A stretch of DNA of 64,000 bases, taken from positions 7,069,001-7,133,000 of the forward strand of contig NZ_FMHW01000002.1 in NCBI RefSeq assembly GCF_900090325.1, read 5' to 3'. The notes beneath the pieces were generated by a model, which worked only from the letters and a program-made list of their open reading frames with translations, ran no database searches and was not told where the DNA came from. The DNA comes from Micromonospora pallida (GTDB lineage: Bacteria > Actinomycetota > Actinomycetes > Mycobacteriales > Micromonosporaceae). Positions 7,966 to 41,460 of the stretch are shown here, in pieces; the stretch's first letter is position 1, and every line of letters begins with the position of its first letter. Made by a program: the position numbers and the translations under genes.

Positions 7966-8042
7966 CGCGGGGTGGAGCAGCTCGGTAGCTCGCTGGGCTC
8001 ATAACCCAGAGGTCGCAGGTTCAAATCCTGTCCCCGCTACCA
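7966..8042 (+). tRNA. Initiator tRNA-fMet (CAU), copy 1
   Basis: A 77-nt cloverleaf with encoded CCA. The anticodon loop is CTCATAA (anticodon CAT), on an anticodon stem ending in three consecutive G:C pairs (GGG/CCC). The first acceptor pair is mismatched (C1 with U72). These two features identify the bacterial initiator tRNA rather than elongator Met or Ile2. The sequence is identical to the copy at 9652. Confidence 0.97.
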
Positions 8043-9651: not shown

Positions 9652-9728
9652 CGCGGGGTGGAGCAGCTCGGTAGCTCGCTGGGCTCATAACCCAGAGGTC
9701 GCAGGTTCAAATCCTGTCCCCGCTACCA
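9652..9728 (+). tRNA. Initiator tRNA-fMet (CAU), copy 2
   Basis: A 77-nt gene identical to the copy at 7966, including C1:U72, GGG/CCC in the anticodon stem and encoded CCA. Identity between the copies extends only three bases upstream and two bases downstream, so each copy has its own promoter and terminator. GATAGAGT at about 9633-9640 is a candidate -10 element. Confidence 0.97.
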
Positions 9729-32972: not shown

Positions 32973-34025
32973 GTGACCGTTCCGGGGGCTGGCATGACCG
33001 CCGACATCGAGGAGCAGCCGGCCGGCTACGCGCGCCTGCTCTCCGCCGAGCACACCGGGCCGATCGCCCGGGTGGCCGAGGCGGTCGCCCGACGCCGCCC
33101 CCGGCACGTGGTGTTCACCGCGCGCGGCACCTCCGACCACGCCGCGCTCTACGCCGCGTACCTCACCGAGATTCGCCTCGGTATCCCCGCCGGCCTCGCC
33201 TCGCCGAGCACGATCACCGTCTTCGGCGCCCGGCCCGATCTCTCCGACGCCCTCGTCGTCGGGGTCAGCCAGAGCGGCGGCTCACCCGACCTGGTCGAGG
33301 TGATCCGGGTGGCCCGCGCCGCCGGGGCGCTCACCCTCGCGGTCACCAACGCGCCACAGTCTCCGCTGGCCGGGGCCGCCGAGCTGAGCGTGGACATCGC
33401 CGCCGGGCACGAGCGGGCGGTCGCCGCCACCAAGACGTACACCGCCGAGCTGCTGGCGCTGCTGCTGCTGGTCGAGGGGATCCGCGCCGGCGACGGCACG
33501 CTGCCGGCCGACGAGCGCGCGGCGCTCGACGCCCTGCCCGACCTCGCCGCGCGTACCCTGGCCGACCCCACCCCGGCCCAGCTCGCCGCCCGTTACCGGT
33601 TCGCCGCGCGCCTGGTCACCACCGGCCGGGGGTACGCCTACCCGACCGCCCGGGAGGCGGCGCTGAAACTGATGGAGACTTCGTACCTGCCGGCGCTGGC
33701 CTTCTCCGGGGCCGACCTGCTGCACGGTCCGCTGGCGATGACCGACCCGGACGTGCCGGTGCTGGCCGTGGTCGGCTCCGGCCCCGGCGGGCGCGCCATG
33801 CGCGAGGTGCTGCCCCGGCTCGGCGAACGCCGTGCCGACGTGGTGGTGGTCGGCTCCGCCGACGTCGAGGGGGCCACCCGGATGGTCGTGCCCGAGGTCG
33901 ACGAGCGGTACGCGCCGCTGCTCGACATCCTGCCGTTGCAGCGGCTCGCGCTCAGCCTGGCGCTCGCCCGGGGCGAGGACCCGGACGCCCCGCGCGGCCT
34001 GAAGAAGGTCACCACGACGATGTGA
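32973..34025 (+). CDS. SIS-domain sugar isomerase/deaminase (GlmS-like, NagB-II type)
   Basis: A 350-residue protein with two SIS domains, matching the isomerase half of GlmS without the glutaminase domain. TARGTSDHAALYAAY, SQSGGSPD and ATKTYTAE in the first domain, and GRGYAYPTAREAALKLMET with the C-terminal LKKVTTTM (the flexible tail that closes the active site in GlmS) are all present. Likely reactions are conversion between glucosamine-6-phosphate and fructose-6-phosphate (NagB-II) or a related amino-sugar step. GTG 32973 follows AGGAGGAGG. A GCGCGCGGTAACGCGC palindrome just upstream (about 32940-32956) could be an operator. Confidence 0.85.
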   Translation: MTVPGAGMTADIEEQPAGYARLLSAEHTGPIARVAEAVARRRPRHVVFTARGTSDHAALYAAYLTEIRLGIPAGLASPSTITVFGARPDLSDALVVGVSQSGGSPDLVEVIRVARAAGALTLAVTNAPQSPLAGAAELSVDIAAGHERAVAATKTYTAELLALLLLVEGIRAGDGTLPADERAALDALPDLAARTLADPTPAQLAARYRFAARLVTTGRGYAYPTAREAALKLMETSYLPALAFSGADLLHGPLAMTDPDVPVLAVVGSGPGGRAMREVLPRLGERRADVVVVGSADVEGATRMVVPEVDERYAPLLDILPLQRLALSLALARGEDPDAPRGLKKVTTTM

Positions 34026-34087
34026 CCGGCGGCCCCCGGACGACGGCCGGCCGGGCGACGGGCCGCTCGGCGTGGCACGCTTCTGGG

Positions 34088-35797
34088 GTGTCCACGCTGC
34101 GCGAACTCGCCGACGAGCACACCCAGCTCCGTCCGGCCGACGTCGACCACCTGCACCGGATCGCCGGTGACTGGCAGCTCCTGTCCGACCTCTCCTTCGC
34201 CGACCTGCTGCTCTGGGTGCCGGTCGACGGTGACGAGAGCTTCCTCTGCGTCGCCCAGGTACGCCCGACGACCGCCCCGACCGCGTACCTGGACGACCAG
34301 GTGGGACGGATCGTCGGCGGACCGGAGGTGGCACACCTGACCATCGCGTACAGCGAGGGCCGGATCTGGCGGGAGGGCGACCCGGTCTGGTACGGCGACG
34401 TTCCGGCCCGGCACGAGGCGATCCCGGTGCGGCTGCGCACCGCCGACGGCGAGGCCGGCGAGGTGATCGCCGTGGTGGGGCGGGACACCAACCTCTCCAC
34501 CGCCCGTACCCCCAGCCAGCTCGAACTGAACTACCTGACCACCGCCGACGACCTGGCGCAGATGCTCGCCGACGGCACCTTTCCACCGCCCCGGCACCAG
34601 GGCGAGACGACCTCCGCGCCCCGCGTCGGCGACGGGCTGGTGCGCCTCGACGCCAGCGGGAAGGTCACCTACGCCAGCCCGAACGCGCAGTCGGCGTACC
34701 GGCGGCTCGGGTCCGCCTCCCACCTGGTCGGCGAGGACCTGGCGGCGCTGCACCGCAGGCTCGCCACCGACCCGCTGGAGGGCACCGACGCGGCCAACGG
34801 CATCCTCGCCGCCCTGCGCGGCGAGGCCCCGCCGCGCCGCGAGATCGACGCCCGGGGCGCGACCATGCTCACCCGGGCACTGCCGCTGATGCCGGCCGGG
34901 GTGCCGATCGGCGCGTTGGTGCTGGTGCGGGACATCACCGAGGTCCGTCGCCGGGACCGCGCGTTGATCACCAAGGACGCCACCATCCGGGAGATCCACC
35001 ACCGGGTGAAGAACAACCTCCAGACCGTGGCGGCCCTGCTGCGACTCCAGGCCCGCCGGGTCGGCATCCCGGCCGCGAAGGCCGCGCTGGAGGAGTCGGT
35101 ACGCCGGGTCGCCTCGATCGCGCTGGTGCACGAGACCCTCTCCATGTCCAGCGACGAGGCGGTGGAGTTCGACGGGATCGTCGACCGGGTGGCCAGCGCG
35201 GCGGCCGAGGTCGCGGCGACCGACACCCCGGTGCGGATGCGTCGGGAGGGGAGCTTCGGCGTGCTCCCCGCCGAGATCGCCACCTCGCTGGTGATGATCC
35301 TCAACGAACTGCTGCTCAACGCGGTGGAGCACGGCTTCCCACCCAGCGACACCGCCCCCGAGGTCCCTCCCACCGTCGAAGCGTCCGGCGCCGCCGAAGC
35401 GTCCGGCGCCGCCGAAGCGTCCGGCGCCGCCGAAGCGTCCGGCGCCGCCGAAGCGTCCGGTGCCGCTGGGGCGTTTGGTGCCACTGGGTCGCTTGGTGCC
35501 GCCGGTCCCGCTACCGGCTCCGCCGAGGCGCCCACCGGCTCCGCCGCTGGTCCTGTGGCGGCCGAGGTGGTGGTCTCCGCGCACCGGTTCCGCAAGCAAC
35601 TGCACGTCACCGTCGCCGACAACGGTCGGGGGCTGCCCGCCGATTTCGACGCCGAACGCGGTGGCAACCTGGGCCTGCAGATCGTCCGCGCCCTGGCTAC
35701 CGGGGAGTTGCGGGGCAGCATCGAGTTGCGCAACCGGGCCGGTGGCGGCACCGAGGCGGTGCTGGTCGTCCCCCTCGCTGGCCCCCGTTCACGCTGA
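34088..35797 (+). CDS. PdtaS-like cytosolic sensor histidine kinase
   Basis: A 569-residue kinase without membrane segments. Order: GAF-like H_kinase_N domain (about 1-150), PAS-like domain (about 185-290), HisKA_2 helix with the phospho-acceptor in EIHHRVKNNLQ (about 304/305), then HATPase_c with N box NELLLNAVEHGF (about 405) and G box ADNGRGLPADF (about 511). This is the architecture of PdtaS-type kinases that act through ANTAR regulators. The ATPase domain carries an unusual insertion of about 60 residues with five EASGAA-like repeats (431-460) between N and G boxes. GTG 34088 chosen. No cognate regulator is adjacent. Confidence 0.85.
   Translation: MSTLRELADEHTQLRPADVDHLHRIAGDWQLLSDLSFADLLLWVPVDGDESFLCVAQVRPTTAPTAYLDDQVGRIVGGPEVAHLTIAYSEGRIWREGDPVWYGDVPARHEAIPVRLRTADGEAGEVIAVVGRDTNLSTARTPSQLELNYLTTADDLAQMLADGTFPPPRHQGETTSAPRVGDGLVRLDASGKVTYASPNAQSAYRRLGSASHLVGEDLAALHRRLATDPLEGTDAANGILAALRGEAPPRREIDARGATMLTRALPLMPAGVPIGALVLVRDITEVRRRDRALITKDATIREIHHRVKNNLQTVAALLRLQARRVGIPAAKAALEESVRRVASIALVHETLSMSSDEAVEFDGIVDRVASAAAEVAATDTPVRMRREGSFGVLPAEIATSLVMILNELLLNAVEHGFPPSDTAPEVPPTVEASGAAEASGAAEASGAAEASGAAEASGAAGAFGATGSLGAAGPATGSAEAPTGSAAGPVAAEVVVSAHRFRKQLHVTVADNGRGLPADFDAERGGNLGLQIVRALATGELRGSIELRNRAGGGTEAVLVVPLAGPRSR
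35378..35467 (+). repeat. 18-bp coding tandem repeat inside kinase ATPase domain
   Basis: Five copies of GAAGCGTCCGGCGCCGCC (Glu-Ala-Ser-Gly-Ala-Ala), the last with two changes, in frame and without disruption of the gene. It is followed by a looser Gly/Ala/Thr-rich stretch to about 35560. Confidence 0.9.
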
Positions 35798-37596: not shown

Positions 37597-37745
37597 CCCC
37601 GAAGCGTCGCACGGGCCGCGCCCCGCCCGTGGAGTGATCGGGACAGGTCGATCACCCCGGGCCGTCCGGCGCGCATGTTCCGAGGTGGCCCGTGATGTGG
37701 GATGGCGCACCAGGACCTTGGCCGGGTTCTCGCAGGTGTGGCAGC

Positions 37746-37841
37746 ATGGTCGACATGACCGCCGCTGTCGAGCGCCGCTTCGTGGCCCGCCGCCACGTCG
37801 ACTACGGTCGCGTTCGCAGCGCCATCTGTCCGGCCTACTGA
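37746..37841 (+). CDS. Cysteine-containing leader peptide of sulfate operon
   Basis: A 31-codon ORF (28 codons from the second ATG, 37755) ending RRHVDYGRVRSAICPAY. The pattern RRHVD-x-x-RVxSAIC matches the short 'putative leader peptide' family that precedes sulfur and cysteine genes in actinomycetes. Ribosome stalling at the Cys codon near its end is thought to sense cysteine supply. It is located 139 bp before sir, followed by potential hairpins. It is below usual gene-calling length. Confidence 0.8.
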   Translation: MVDMTAAVERRFVARRHVDYGRVRSAICPAY

Positions 37842-37980
37842 CGACGCCCGACCCATCCGTCTCGGGCGCGCATCCGCGCCGGCTCCACGACACCGTTGTC
37901 TTTCCGCCCGGCACCCCGGGCGAGCCGCCGCGTCCCGCGCGCATACCGAGGCGACCACCCAGACAACGGAGGACGCCGCG
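37842..37980 (+). promoter_or_regulatory. sir: Candidate attenuator region between leader peptide and sir
   Basis: Two competing structures are readable. A hairpin CGCCCGA/TCGGGCG (37845-37851 with 37862-37868) begins right after the leader stop. A longer-range pairing CCGTTGTCT (37893-37901) with AGACAACGG (37961-37969) would cover the first bases of the sir ribosome-binding site CGGAGGA. This suggests translational control, coupled to leader translation; inference from pairing only. Confidence 0.5.
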
Positions 37981-39693
37981 ATGGCCGTCAACAGCACCCC
38001 GGCTCGGCCCGAGCGCCCGGCGGCAGTCGCCGCCCGGGCTCCCCGCCGGCCTCGGGGTGAGGGGCAGTGGGCGCTCGGACACCGCGAGCCGCTCAACCCC
38101 AACGAGCGGATGAAGAAGGACGACGATCCGCTCAACGTCCGCGCCCGGATCGAGAACATCTACGCGCACCGGGGGTTCGCCTCGATCGACCCGCAGGACC
38201 TGCGCGGCCGGTTCCGTTGGTGGGGCCTCTACACGCAGCGCAAGGCCGGCATCGACGGCGGACGGACTGCCGTGCTGGAGCCGCACGAGCTGGAGGACGA
38301 GTTCTTCATGCTCCGGGTGCGGGTCGACGGCGGGCAGCTCAGCCTGGCGCAGCTCCGGGTGGTCGCGGACATCTCCCGGGAGTTCGCCCGGGACACCGCC
38401 GACATCACCGACCGGCAGAACATCCAGTACCACTGGATCCGGGTCGAGGACATGCCGGAGATCTGGCGACGGCTGGAGTCGGTCGGCCTGCAGACCACCG
38501 AGGCGTGCGGGGACTGTCCCCGGATCGTCCTCGGCAGCCCGGTCGCCGGGGTGGCGAAGGACGAGGTGCTCGACCCGACCCCGGCGCTTGACGAGATCGT
38601 CCGCCGGTACGTCGGCGACAAGCAGTACGCCAACCTGCCCCGCAAGTTCAAGTCCTCGATCTCCTGGCTGGTCGACACCCCGTACGAGGCCAACGACATC
38701 GCCTTCCTCGGCGTCGAGCACCCCGACCACGGCCCCGGCTTCGACCTCTGGGTCGGCGGTGGGCTCTCCACCAACCCGATGCTCGCCAAGCGGCTCGGGG
38801 TCTGGGTGCCGCTGGCCGAGGTGCCCGACGTCTGGGCCGGTGTGGTGGGCATCTTCCGCGACTACGGCTACCGCCGGCTGCGTAACCGGGCGCGGCTGAA
38901 GTTCCTGGTGGCCGACTGGGGCGTGGAGAAGTTCCGCGAGGTGCTGGAGAAGGAGTACCTCGGCCGGGCCCTGCTGGACGGCCCCGCTCCGCAGCTCCCG
39001 GCCAAGCCGGTGGACCACATCGGCGTGCACGAGCAGGCCGACGGCCGGTACTACGTCGGGGCCGCCCCGGTGGTCGGACGGGTCTCCGGCACCCAGCTCG
39101 CCCAGCTCGCCGACGTGGTCGAGGCGCACGGCAGCGACCGGGTGCGGCTCACCGCGTACCAGAAGCTGCTGGTGCTGGACGTGGCGCCGGAGCGGACCGA
39201 CTCGCTGGTGGCGGCGCTGCGCGGGATCGGCCTGGAGGCCCATCCGTCGGCCTGGCGGCGCGGCACGATGGCCTGCACCGGCATCGAGTACTGCAAGCTC
39301 GCGATCGTCGAGACCAAGGCCCGGGGCGAGGAGCTGGTGGCCCGGCTGGAGGAGCGGCTGCGCGGCTTCGACGCGGACATCTCCATCCACATCAACGGCT
39401 GCCCGAACGCCTGCGCCCGTACCCAGGTCGCCGACATCGGCCTGAAGGGGCAGCTCGTGGTCGGCCCGGACGGCCGGCAGGTCGAGGGCTTCCAGGTGCA
39501 CCTGGGCGGTGGGCTCGGCATGGCGCAGGGGCAGACCGCCGGGTTCGGCCGCAAGCTGCGGGGCCTGAAGACCACCGCCGAGGAACTGCCCGAGTACGTG
39601 GAGCGGGTGGCCCGGCGGTACCTGGCCGGCCGGACCGAAGGTGAGACGTTCGCCAACTGGGTGATCCGGGTCGACGAGGAGGAACTCCGATGA
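37981..39693 (+). CDS. sir: Assimilatory sulfite reductase (ferredoxin type)
   Basis: A 570-residue siroheme/[4Fe-4S] reductase of the SirA/NirA family, reducing sulfite to sulfide. The duplicated half-domains are visible, and the four cluster ligands are Cys432 and Cys438 in ACTGIEYC and Cys474 and Cys478 in GCPNAC. Its place directly before cysH and a chelatase gene favours sulfite over nitrite as substrate. ATG 37981 with CGGAGGA upstream. Its last codon overlaps the next gene (ATGA). Confidence 0.93.
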   Translation: MAVNSTPARPERPAAVAARAPRRPRGEGQWALGHREPLNPNERMKKDDDPLNVRARIENIYAHRGFASIDPQDLRGRFRWWGLYTQRKAGIDGGRTAVLEPHELEDEFFMLRVRVDGGQLSLAQLRVVADISREFARDTADITDRQNIQYHWIRVEDMPEIWRRLESVGLQTTEACGDCPRIVLGSPVAGVAKDEVLDPTPALDEIVRRYVGDKQYANLPRKFKSSISWLVDTPYEANDIAFLGVEHPDHGPGFDLWVGGGLSTNPMLAKRLGVWVPLAEVPDVWAGVVGIFRDYGYRRLRNRARLKFLVADWGVEKFREVLEKEYLGRALLDGPAPQLPAKPVDHIGVHEQADGRYYVGAAPVVGRVSGTQLAQLADVVEAHGSDRVRLTAYQKLLVLDVAPERTDSLVAALRGIGLEAHPSAWRRGTMACTGIEYCKLAIVETKARGEELVARLEERLRGFDADISIHINGCPNACARTQVADIGLKGQLVVGPDGRQVEGFQVHLGGGLGMAQGQTAGFGRKLRGLKTTAEELPEYVERVARRYLAGRTEGETFANWVIRVDEEELR

Positions 39694-39896
39694 GTGAAAC
39701 CCGATCGGTGCCGCTGTACTGCCCGTACTGCGGCGAGGAGGACCTGCGGCCCAACGAGACCGGGCACGGCGCGTGGGAGTGCCACGCCTGCCTCCGGGTC
39801 TTCGCGGTGAAGTTCACCGGTCTGCTCTCCCGGGCGGTGTCCGGGCCGGTGGAAGAGGCGGGTTCCGGGCCGGTGGCCGAGGCGGTGACACGATGA
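39690..39896 (+). CDS. Small zinc-ribbon protein of the sulfate operon
   Basis: A 68-residue protein with CPYCGEEDL (Cys pair near 11/14) and ECHAC (Cys pair near 31/34) in a four-Cys zinc ribbon, then an Ala/Glu/Val-rich tail. It overlaps sir by four bases (ATGA) and cysH by four bases, so all three should be translationally coupled. Small proteins at this place between sulfite reductase and cysH are seen in actinomycetes. A role in electron transfer, metal supply or assembly is possible but unknown. Confidence 0.75.
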   Translation: MSETRSVPLYCPYCGEEDLRPNETGHGAWECHACLRVFAVKFTGLLSRAVSGPVEEAGSGPVAEAVTR

Positions 39897-40657
39897 GCGG
39901 CCTGGTGTCGGCGGCCGGGCTCGGACTGGTCGGCACCGGCCACACCGTTCCGGCCGGGTCGGGCCGGCGTGGTCCCGAGGAACTCCGCGAGTTGGCCACC
40001 CGGGCCGGCCGGGAACTGGAGGGTGCGCCCGCCCTGGAGATCGTCCGCTGGGCGGCGGAGACCTTCGGCGACCGGCTCTGCGTCACCAGTTCGATGGCGG
40101 ACGCCGTCCTGGCCCACCTGGTCTCCCGGGTGGCTCCCGGGGTGGACGTGGTCTTCCTCGACACCGGGCTGCACTTCCCCGAGACGCTGCGGGTTCGCGA
40201 CGAGGTGGTCCGTACGCTGCCGGTGAACGTCCGGTCGATCCGTCCCCGGTTGACCGTCGGCCAGCAGGACGGCGAGTACGGTCCCCGGCTGTTCAACAAG
40301 TCGCCGGACGAGTGCTGCCGGCTGCGCAAGGTGGAGCCGCTGGAGCGCGCGCTGGGCGACTACGACGCCTGGGCGGCCGGGCTGCGCCGGGACGAGTCGC
40401 CCACCCGGGCGAACACCCCGGTGGTCGGGTACGACGAGCGGCGCGGCAAGGTGAAGGTCAACCCCATCGCGGCCTGGACGCAAGCGGACGTGGACGGCTA
40501 TGTCGCCCGGCACCGGGTGCCGGTCAACGAACTGTTCCGGCAGGGCTACGGCTCGGTCGGCTGCTGGCCCTGCACCCGGCGGACGAAGGCGGGGGAGGAC
40601 CCGCGCGCCGGCCGCTGGGCGATGTTCGAGAAGACCGAGTGCGGACTGCACACCTGA
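39893..40657 (+). CDS. cysH: Adenylyl-sulfate reductase (thioredoxin)
   Basis: A 254-residue assimilatory reductase. The catalytic Cys250 is in the C-terminal ECGLH motif. Two further pairs, Cys141/Cys142 (ECCRLRK) and Cys224/Cys227 (CWPC), are the [4Fe-4S] ligands of the APS-using type, so the substrate is probably APS rather than PAPS. It overlaps the zinc-ribbon gene by four bases. Sulfite produced here is used by the sir product. Confidence 0.93.
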   Translation: MSGLVSAAGLGLVGTGHTVPAGSGRRGPEELRELATRAGRELEGAPALEIVRWAAETFGDRLCVTSSMADAVLAHLVSRVAPGVDVVFLDTGLHFPETLRVRDEVVRTLPVNVRSIRPRLTVGQQDGEYGPRLFNKSPDECCRLRKVEPLERALGDYDAWAAGLRRDESPTRANTPVVGYDERRGKVKVNPIAAWTQADVDGYVARHRVPVNELFRQGYGSVGCWPCTRRTKAGEDPRAGRWAMFEKTECGLHT

Positions 40658-40665
40658 GCCCGCTG

Positions 40666-41460
40666 GTGCCGGCACCGGCGTCCCCGGTGCTGGTACCCGG
40701 GCGCCTGCCGGCGTTTCGGGGGCCGGTGTCCGGGGCCGATCCGGTGGTCCTGGTCGCCCACGGCAGCCGGGATCCGCGGGCTGCCGCAGCGACCCGGGCG
40801 CTGGCCCGGGCCGTCGCCGCTGCCCGTCCCGGCACGGTGGTCCTGCCGAGCTGGCTGGACCACACCGCGCCCACCCCGGCCGAGGTGCTGTGTGGGCTGG
40901 CCGAGGCCGGGCACGCCCGGGCGGTACTGGTGCCGTTGCTGTTGACCGCCGCGTACCACCGCCGGGTGGACATCCCGGCCGCGGTGGCGGAGGCCGGTGC
41001 CGTCGGCCGCGCGATGGCGGTACGGGTCACCGATGTGCTCGGCCCCGTCGGGGAGCGGGTGGACCCCCTCCTGCTGGCCGGGCTGCGGCAGCGGCTGGCC
41101 GAGGCGGAGCCGGGGCGGTTCGACGCGCTGGTGCTGGCGGCGGCGGGTACCCGGGATCCGGGCGCACGGGCCTCGGTGGGGCGGGTCGCCGCTGCGCTCG
41201 GAGCGAGCTACGGCGTGCCCTGTCGGGTGGCGTACGCCTCGGCCGCCGCGCCGACCACCGGTACGGCAGTGGCCCGGTTCCGGGCCGACGGGGCCCGACG
41301 GGTGGCGGTGTCGGCGTACTTCCTGGCCCCGGGCCTGTTCCACGACGCAGTCACGACGGCAGCCCGCGAGGCCAGCGCGGTGGCCGTCTCGGCCCCCCTG
41401 ACCGACACCCCCGACCTGGCCCACCTGATCCTCCGCCGTCTCCACGCTTTCAGCGGCTGA
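40666..41460 (+). CDS. Sirohydrochlorin chelatase-like protein (CbiX/SirB)
   Basis: A 264-residue member of the CbiX/SirB class-II chelatase family, with LVAHGSRDPRAA at the N-terminus carrying the conserved metal-site His, and a second half containing VSAYFLAPGLFHD with another His. It likely inserts Fe into sirohydrochlorin to make siroheme for the upstream sulfite reductase; cobalt for cobalamin is the alternative. GTG 40666 lies eight bases after the cysH stop; GTG 40687 is a possible later start. Its stop codon is part of a 22-bp hairpin. Confidence 0.85.
   Translation: MPAPASPVLVPGRLPAFRGPVSGADPVVLVAHGSRDPRAAAATRALARAVAAARPGTVVLPSWLDHTAPTPAEVLCGLAEAGHARAVLVPLLLTAAYHRRVDIPAAVAEAGAVGRAMAVRVTDVLGPVGERVDPLLLAGLRQRLAEAEPGRFDALVLAAAGTRDPGARASVGRVAAALGASYGVPCRVAYASAAAPTTGTAVARFRADGARRVAVSAYFLAPGLFHDAVTTAAREASAVAVSAPLTDTPDLAHLILRRLHAFSG

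Follow-up and report, generated by a model that had tools for sequence, protein, structure and literature searches.

The window, a 64,000-nt stretch of the 7.76 Mb genome of Micromonospora pallida, carries a short ORF followed on its 3' side by a sir-cysH-cbiX operon (Table 1). From the matches to NF002537 and Pfam profiles, cysteine synthesis is what this operon serves, and the role of its CbiX family chelatase is probably in siroheme.

Table 1. Features of the leader region and of the sir-cysH-cbiX operon, with positions counted along the window
Feature	Position	Strand	Remark
Conserved box GATGTGGGAT	37694..37703	+	Upstream of the putative promoter, ~133 nt 5' of the Cys codon
-35-like element TTGGCC	37718..37723	+	57/59 congeners have a loose TTGG/TGTG-like match, suitably spaced
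-10-like element CAGCAT	37742..37747	+	7 nt 5' of the leader ATG
Leader peptide ORF MTAAVERRFVARRHVDYGRVRSAICPAY*, 28 aa	37755..37841	+	Leader pattern in 163/164 loci
Putative sensing Cys codon TGT	37827..37829	+	TGT in 173/173 distinct leaders
Hairpin A, CGCCCGA / TCGGGCG, 10-nt loop	37845..37868	+	86.1% of cells paired, 76 family sequences
Alternative hairpin B, GGCGCG / CGCGCC	37865..37880	+	Overlaps hairpin A at its 3' arm
Left arm CCGTTGTCT	37893..37901	+	Proposed long-range pairing, not conserved
Right arm AGACAACGG	37961..37969	+	Proposed long-range pairing, not conserved
Shine-Dalgarno (SD) GGAGG of sir	37968..37972	+	Columns invariant in an alignment of 58 congeners; sir ATG at 37981
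sir, sulfite/nitrite reductase, 570 aa	37981..39693	+	Pfam NIR_SIR and NIR_SIR_ferr above cut-off
cysH, (phospho)adenylyl-sulfate reductase	39860..40657	+	NF002537, 270 bits against a cut-off of 154
CbiX family chelatase	40696..41460	+	PF01903, 101.8 bits against a cut-off of 22

The short ORF that an earlier note on this DNA had read from 37746 to 37841 (MVDMTAAVERRFVARRHVDYGRVRSAICPAY*, ending in RRHVDYGRVRSAICPAY) is present, with its Cys codon four codons before the TGA stop (37839-37841). A lack of conservation of the leader in relatives had been named there as grounds for dropping the idea of a cysteine leader peptide; we found instead that a Cys-containing leader peptide 5' of the cysteine-biosynthesis operon is conserved. 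Every one of the 59 congeneric loci has it upstream of sir, and a single pattern run over the genus and family sets recovered it in all but one of 164 loci, whose selection had used sir alone, without regard to the leader. The sole miss (L070) stops at a contig edge. Some duplicates remain among these loci, 156 of the 163 being distinct over ~150 nt. For the genus set, sir was found in 60 of 61 genomes and the sequence 5' of it was inspected in 59, the 60th (G040) having a partial sir match only and being left out; for the family set, sir was found in 142 of 150 genomes and 105 loci were read (25 + 80), some repeating genus genomes. Named loci with leaders 89-96% identical belong to Micromonospora and relatives such as Actinoplanes.

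Across the class, a search with a profile of 20 leaders gave matches in 150 of 197 genomes, representing 64 of 90 genera, with up to 13 per genome; the other 47 genomes gave no match at E ≤ 0.01. Downstream of the best 30 matches we found sir, including all of those outside the genus (27/27), whereas it followed none of 20 lower-scoring matches that were inspected. Two lower-scoring leaders (L203 and L209) sit 5' of CysK-like ORFs. Leader matches were also seen in pairs on opposite strands, ~45-200 bp apart (G270:C172, G329:C520, G339:C29, G359:C103, and G300:C23), an arrangement that suggests divergent operons with one Cys leader apiece. Within the M. pallida genome itself, a second leader-like ORF (...TIRRAIDYLLVNSSLCPSRSV*, with TGT as its Cys codon) was read by eye at L168:1489-1572 (G000:C2 ~2203267-2203350); with a match of E=1.42 it is only suggestive.

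The leader probably starts at ATG 37755, on a leaderless mRNA, rather than at 37746. An ATG corresponding to 37755 is found in 59 of 59 congeners, 24 codons 5' of the Cys codon. The 37746 start was considered and rejected: its cATG has a counterpart in 51 of the 59 congeners, in frame in 31 and out of frame in 20, and is absent from 8. This cATG is part of a -10-like element, and we take 37755 as the conserved start. The element itself, TGnnA(G/A)CAT, occurs in 59 of 59 congeners; it ends 6 nt from the ATG in 24 loci and 7 nt from it in 35, a distance that suggests a leaderless transcript from 37755. A scan with an E. coli-type consensus found no promoter. The box further upstream, as the pattern G?ATGTGGGA(T/A), was matched in all 59 congeneric loci and, among the 104 other loci of the family, in 12; GATGTGGGAT is a possible regulator site.

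We then considered how the peptide is conserved. Among 175 distinct cores, a set that includes one spurious core (a second ORF in L125) and one without Cys at the site (L233), the first R of the motif is invariant while using 5 codons, and R at position 8 is invariant while using 6. The D is encoded by GAC in 119 cores and GAT in 56, and S and A are kept in 171 and 160, respectively. Because H, V/I, D, and either R or K at position 8 are prerequisites of the core pattern, part of the invariance seen for H and D in this count is built in; one profile match that the pattern missed (L194) has H at position 8 and TGT as its Cys codon. The fit of the motif to 163 of the 164 sir-chosen loci is a less biased gauge. 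Residues up to 13 positions before the Cys are kept across the class, and this retention of the motif while synonymous codons vary argues for selection on the amino acids, not on RNA alone. The arrest peptides TnaC and SecM have conserved residues near the pause site. This leader shares with them conserved residues within ~13 positions of its presumed pause site; it differs in that pausing here is a prediction and that the sensing of a free amino acid is not part of the case.

The Cys codon behaves differently from the other codons of the core. TGT occupies this position in 163 of 163 family loci and in all 57 distinct leaders from outside the family, two sets that together supply the 173 distinct leaders of Table 1, and also in 80 of 80 named loci, which overlap with them. 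Left out of the 173 were the spurious second ORF in L125, with an apparent TGC (the real leader of L125 has TGT), and L233. As a control, the sir reading frames of 54 genus and family loci contain 312 TGC against 21 TGT codons (~94% UGC), and sir stretches outside the family give TGC:TGT ratios of 101:4 and 58:4. For other Cys codons within the leaders, TGC outnumbers TGT by 19:1 in the family and by 18:1 in 42 leaders from outside it. In 15 Mycobacteriaceae-like leaders, which carry Cys runs, the other Cys codons are TGT 21:TGC 13 (21/34), and the TGT preference there spans more than one codon. The T-ending share of the other 13 core codons is 11.1% in the named loci and 12.1% outside the family. 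The base following UGU varies (C 44, A 7, and T 6 in 57 non-family leaders), and this speaks against any fixed motif longer than the codon; it is possible that UGU is fixed through RNA pairing. The literature that we found mentions neither an invariant UGU nor a conserved peptide in such leaders, a weak absence given the thin coverage of subscription papers.

Two tRNA-Cys genes were found in the genome, each with anticodon GCA, and among the stretches of all 80 Rfam tRNA hits, ARAGORN called no tRNA-Cys with anticodon ACA. This search combined Rfam and ARAGORN, the latter returning two genes with unclear four-base anticodons (L350) and none in one stretch (L366); two tRNA-Cys pattern scans matched nothing. 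In one region (L345, G000:C2:6513900-6517600), 30 tRNA genes covering 19 amino acids, tRNA-Cys included, form an array that possibly belongs to a mobile element.

Directly after the leader stop lies the 7-bp hairpin of the earlier note, here hairpin A (arms at 37845-37851 and 37862-37868), which is likewise conserved in the family. Its pairing was assessed in 76 of 99 sequences (15 were dropped for want of the next conserved element, 4 as duplicates, and 4 as too long). The paired fraction of 86.1% compares with a shuffled mean of 83.8, with 0 of 500 shuffles as high, and the five measures applied to the hairpin were reached by 0, 1, 3, 32, and 0 of 500 shuffles. Changes on both sides were seen at 5 of 7 pairs (15 cells). 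In controls slid along the alignment, 25-56% of cells pair; at ~50% paired, slide -2 shows 15 cells changed on both sides and slide -1 shows 22, against 15 for hairpin A, and the covariation score of slide -2 is 0.126 against 0.124. As slides rival hairpin A in both-sided changes, its support comes mainly from the paired fraction. Both the leader and hairpin A exceed chance.

Of 156 sequences examined, hairpin A was located in 151, and in 138 of these its 5' arm begins +19 to +23 nt from the first base of the Cys codon. Among nine loci with a displaced stop, it lies at +18 to +23 in five (L153, L157, L158, L159, and L165) and does not in L155, L156, L163, and L166. That this spacing follows the Cys codon instead of the stop is a suggestion that rests on few loci. 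Outside the family, no comparable hairpin was evident at a common position. Alternative hairpin B is paired in 91.0% of cells, with covariation not above that expected from composition; a trp-like set of alternative hairpins including it is geometrically possible, though unproved.

The leader is similar to two NCBIfam models of actinobacterial Cys leader peptides, scoring below the curated cut-off in each: NF042936 (leader_Ms4527A; 21.3 bits, E=1.5e-4, cut-off 45) and NF042934 (cis_reg_atten; 15.3 bits, E=0.012, cut-off 27), with the core motif aligning to positions 2-19 of the 19 in the latter profile. This likeness makes Cys-responsive attenuation here a known kind of control, and given the scores, we call the leader a variant that would work like Cys leader peptides. 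With NF042936 and the mycobacterial leaders it has in common a short, probably leaderless ORF 5' of sulfite reductase, the R-R-H-V/I-D...C motif, and a Cys near the stop, and with mycobacterial attenuators the position 5' of a cysteine-metabolism operon. In contrast to the mycobacterial poly-Cys leaders, it has one Cys codon and no Cys run, and is followed by the family-specific hairpin A. Leaders such as RRHVDFKRVCSCCCLP stand upstream of sir in a second family of the order, which we take to be Mycobacteriaceae. Reported mycobacterial cases are poly-Cys, and Canestrari et al. 2020 are said to have described mycobacterial poly-Cys leaderless short ORFs. Their work is cited in the accessible parts of PMC9094748 and PMC13236596, the latter part stating that translation attenuation was shown for several cysteine biosynthetic genes of M. 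smegmatis.

Cys leader peptides without terminators 5' of actinobacterial cys operons are described in the available text of Seliverstov et al. 2005 (PMC1262725), the genera named in its section 6 being Mycobacterium, Propionibacterium, and Bifidobacterium only. As far as that text goes, those leaders share with ours Cys codons near the stop, a Cys operon next, and no terminator, but have Cys runs and no conserved hairpin. The Cys attenuator uORFC-8-2, 5' of cysS in Rhodobacterales, is likewise a uORF with Cys control codons; according to the portion available (PMC8632094), it differs in having a terminator-like U run and tandem Cys codons that are mostly UGC.

Our main reading, which we hold at a probability of roughly 0.7, is that the leader is of the actinomycete Cys leader-peptide kind, in which a pause at UGU favors the hairpin A state and turns up sir-cysH-cbiX. 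The translating ribosome would have to decode a single UGU, which tRNA-Cys with GCA, the sole anticodon seen for it, would read by G-U wobble. At low Cys-tRNA it would wait with UGU in the A site, perhaps aided by conserved nascent residues touching the exit tunnel. With ~12 nt covered past the translated codon, a figure from the accessible part of PMC4833913, the leading edge of a ribosome paused at UGU would halt a few nucleotides short of hairpin A and leave it free and intact, whereas one that had reached the stop codon would sit over the hairpin's 5' arm. The hairpin A state would then raise expression of the operon. That pausing at UGU depends on cysteine we infer by analogy with this kind of system; the direction of the response would be low cysteine, sir up, and the nascent chain may contribute. 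For the output step, we regard translational control as the leading candidate at somewhat less than even odds, with Rho-dependent termination behind it and any other step least probable.

The region 37600-38000 contained 0 intrinsic terminators in our scan, the element called for in a trp-type attenuator, and an Rfam search of 37600-38050 gave no riboswitch or T-box match up to E=1. With a C-rich spacer and no intrinsic terminator, Rho stays a candidate. In a TnaC-like logic, Rho would load on the untranslated spacer once translation had ended at the leader stop, and would halt transcription unless a UGU-paused ribosome or hairpin A blocked it, and both the conservation of the leader peptide, as in arrest peptides, and the proposal of Rho for mycobacterial cys leaders in the available text of PMC1262725 fit such a scheme. 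The spacer is 45% C and 29% G across 59 congeners (47.6 and 27.8 in the window), but C-richness is common in GC-rich DNA and the spacer folds stably. We consider this version unlikely, while still giving it a real share.

A pure codon-starvation attenuator, in which the Cys codon alone counts and the peptide is incidental, seems to us about equally doubtful. Control codons suffice in classical attenuators, where synonymous codon choice matters, according to the part of PMC1183508 that was available. The class-wide retention of the residues preceding the Cys, despite their synonymous variation, speaks against it.

The earlier note had instead proposed that stalling at Cys decides whether CCGTTGTCT pairs with AGACAACGG and so masks the sir ribosome-binding site. 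The 9-bp complementarity does exist, the two arms being perfect complements in the window, and its distal arm covers the first two G of GGAGG. Among 58 distinct congeners, compared at fixed alignment columns, all nine pairs are kept in 4, eight in 25, seven in 9, and six or fewer in 20, and neither of the two central T-A pairs, broken in 26 and 20 sequences, is restored by a double change. As the complementarity decays in this way, we do not regard it as established beyond chance. The folding check proposed in the earlier note gave a similar answer, the pairing being absent from the minimum free energy (MFE) folds of the window.

Predicted accessibility of the SD was compared in 145 of the 163 sequences (7 had spacers out of range, 6 were duplicates, and 5 lacked a recognized SD). 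It was alike with the ribosome at the Cys codon (0.241) and at the stop (0.244; p=0.88), and between real and shuffled spacers (0.246 and 0.255; 49 of 145, p=0.56). With the whole leader RNA free, it was 0.214, slightly below the stalled value (p=0.009), which favors masking, and in the 58 congeners it was 0.194 free against 0.270 stalled. In the window itself, the values were 0.25 stalled, 0.27 free, and 0.40 at the stop, the last opposite to a masking model. Such equilibrium folding is at most a weak hint of control at the ribosome-binding site. A pairing of the SD with bases just 3' of the leader stop, returned by RNAalifold with RIBOSUM scoring, was rejected, as the default consensus and single-sequence folds disagree with it. 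We consider masking through these arms very improbable; of the proposal of control by stalling on Cys, the conserved leader, its Cys codon, and the nearby hairpin are supported, and the masking arms are not. Least credible of all is that the peptide works in trans as a protein whose gene merely sits 5' of sir, as, despite its strong amino-acid conservation, it is 28 aa only, family members with differing N-termini also precede other genes (the CysK-like ORFs), and a fixed UGU is hard to square with such a role.

Within the leader-peptide reading, we tentatively suggest, at rather less than even odds, that the invariant, wobble-read UGU and the nascent peptide R-x-H-V/I-D-x-x-R-x-x-S-A-x-C jointly form a class-wide actinomycete cysteine sensor. 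One codon would here take the place of Cys runs, and outputs would differ by lineage, hairpin A being that of this family. As far as the literature found shows, the single-codon form in the family, the fixed UGU, and the hairpin at a usually fixed distance are new. Control codons alone are the usual explanation of how attenuators work; a synonymous choice fixed against codon bias, together with a class-wide motif, makes the question of codon or nascent chain directly testable. If true, one ribosome-based sensor would govern sulfur assimilation in many actinomycetes, including antibiotic producers.

Elsewhere in the window, two tRNA-Met genes (7966-8042 and 9652-9728) with equal Rfam scores lie 1.7 kb apart, and a GAAEAS-type linker is repeated at ~35378-35495 within a sensor-kinase-like ORF (34022-35797).
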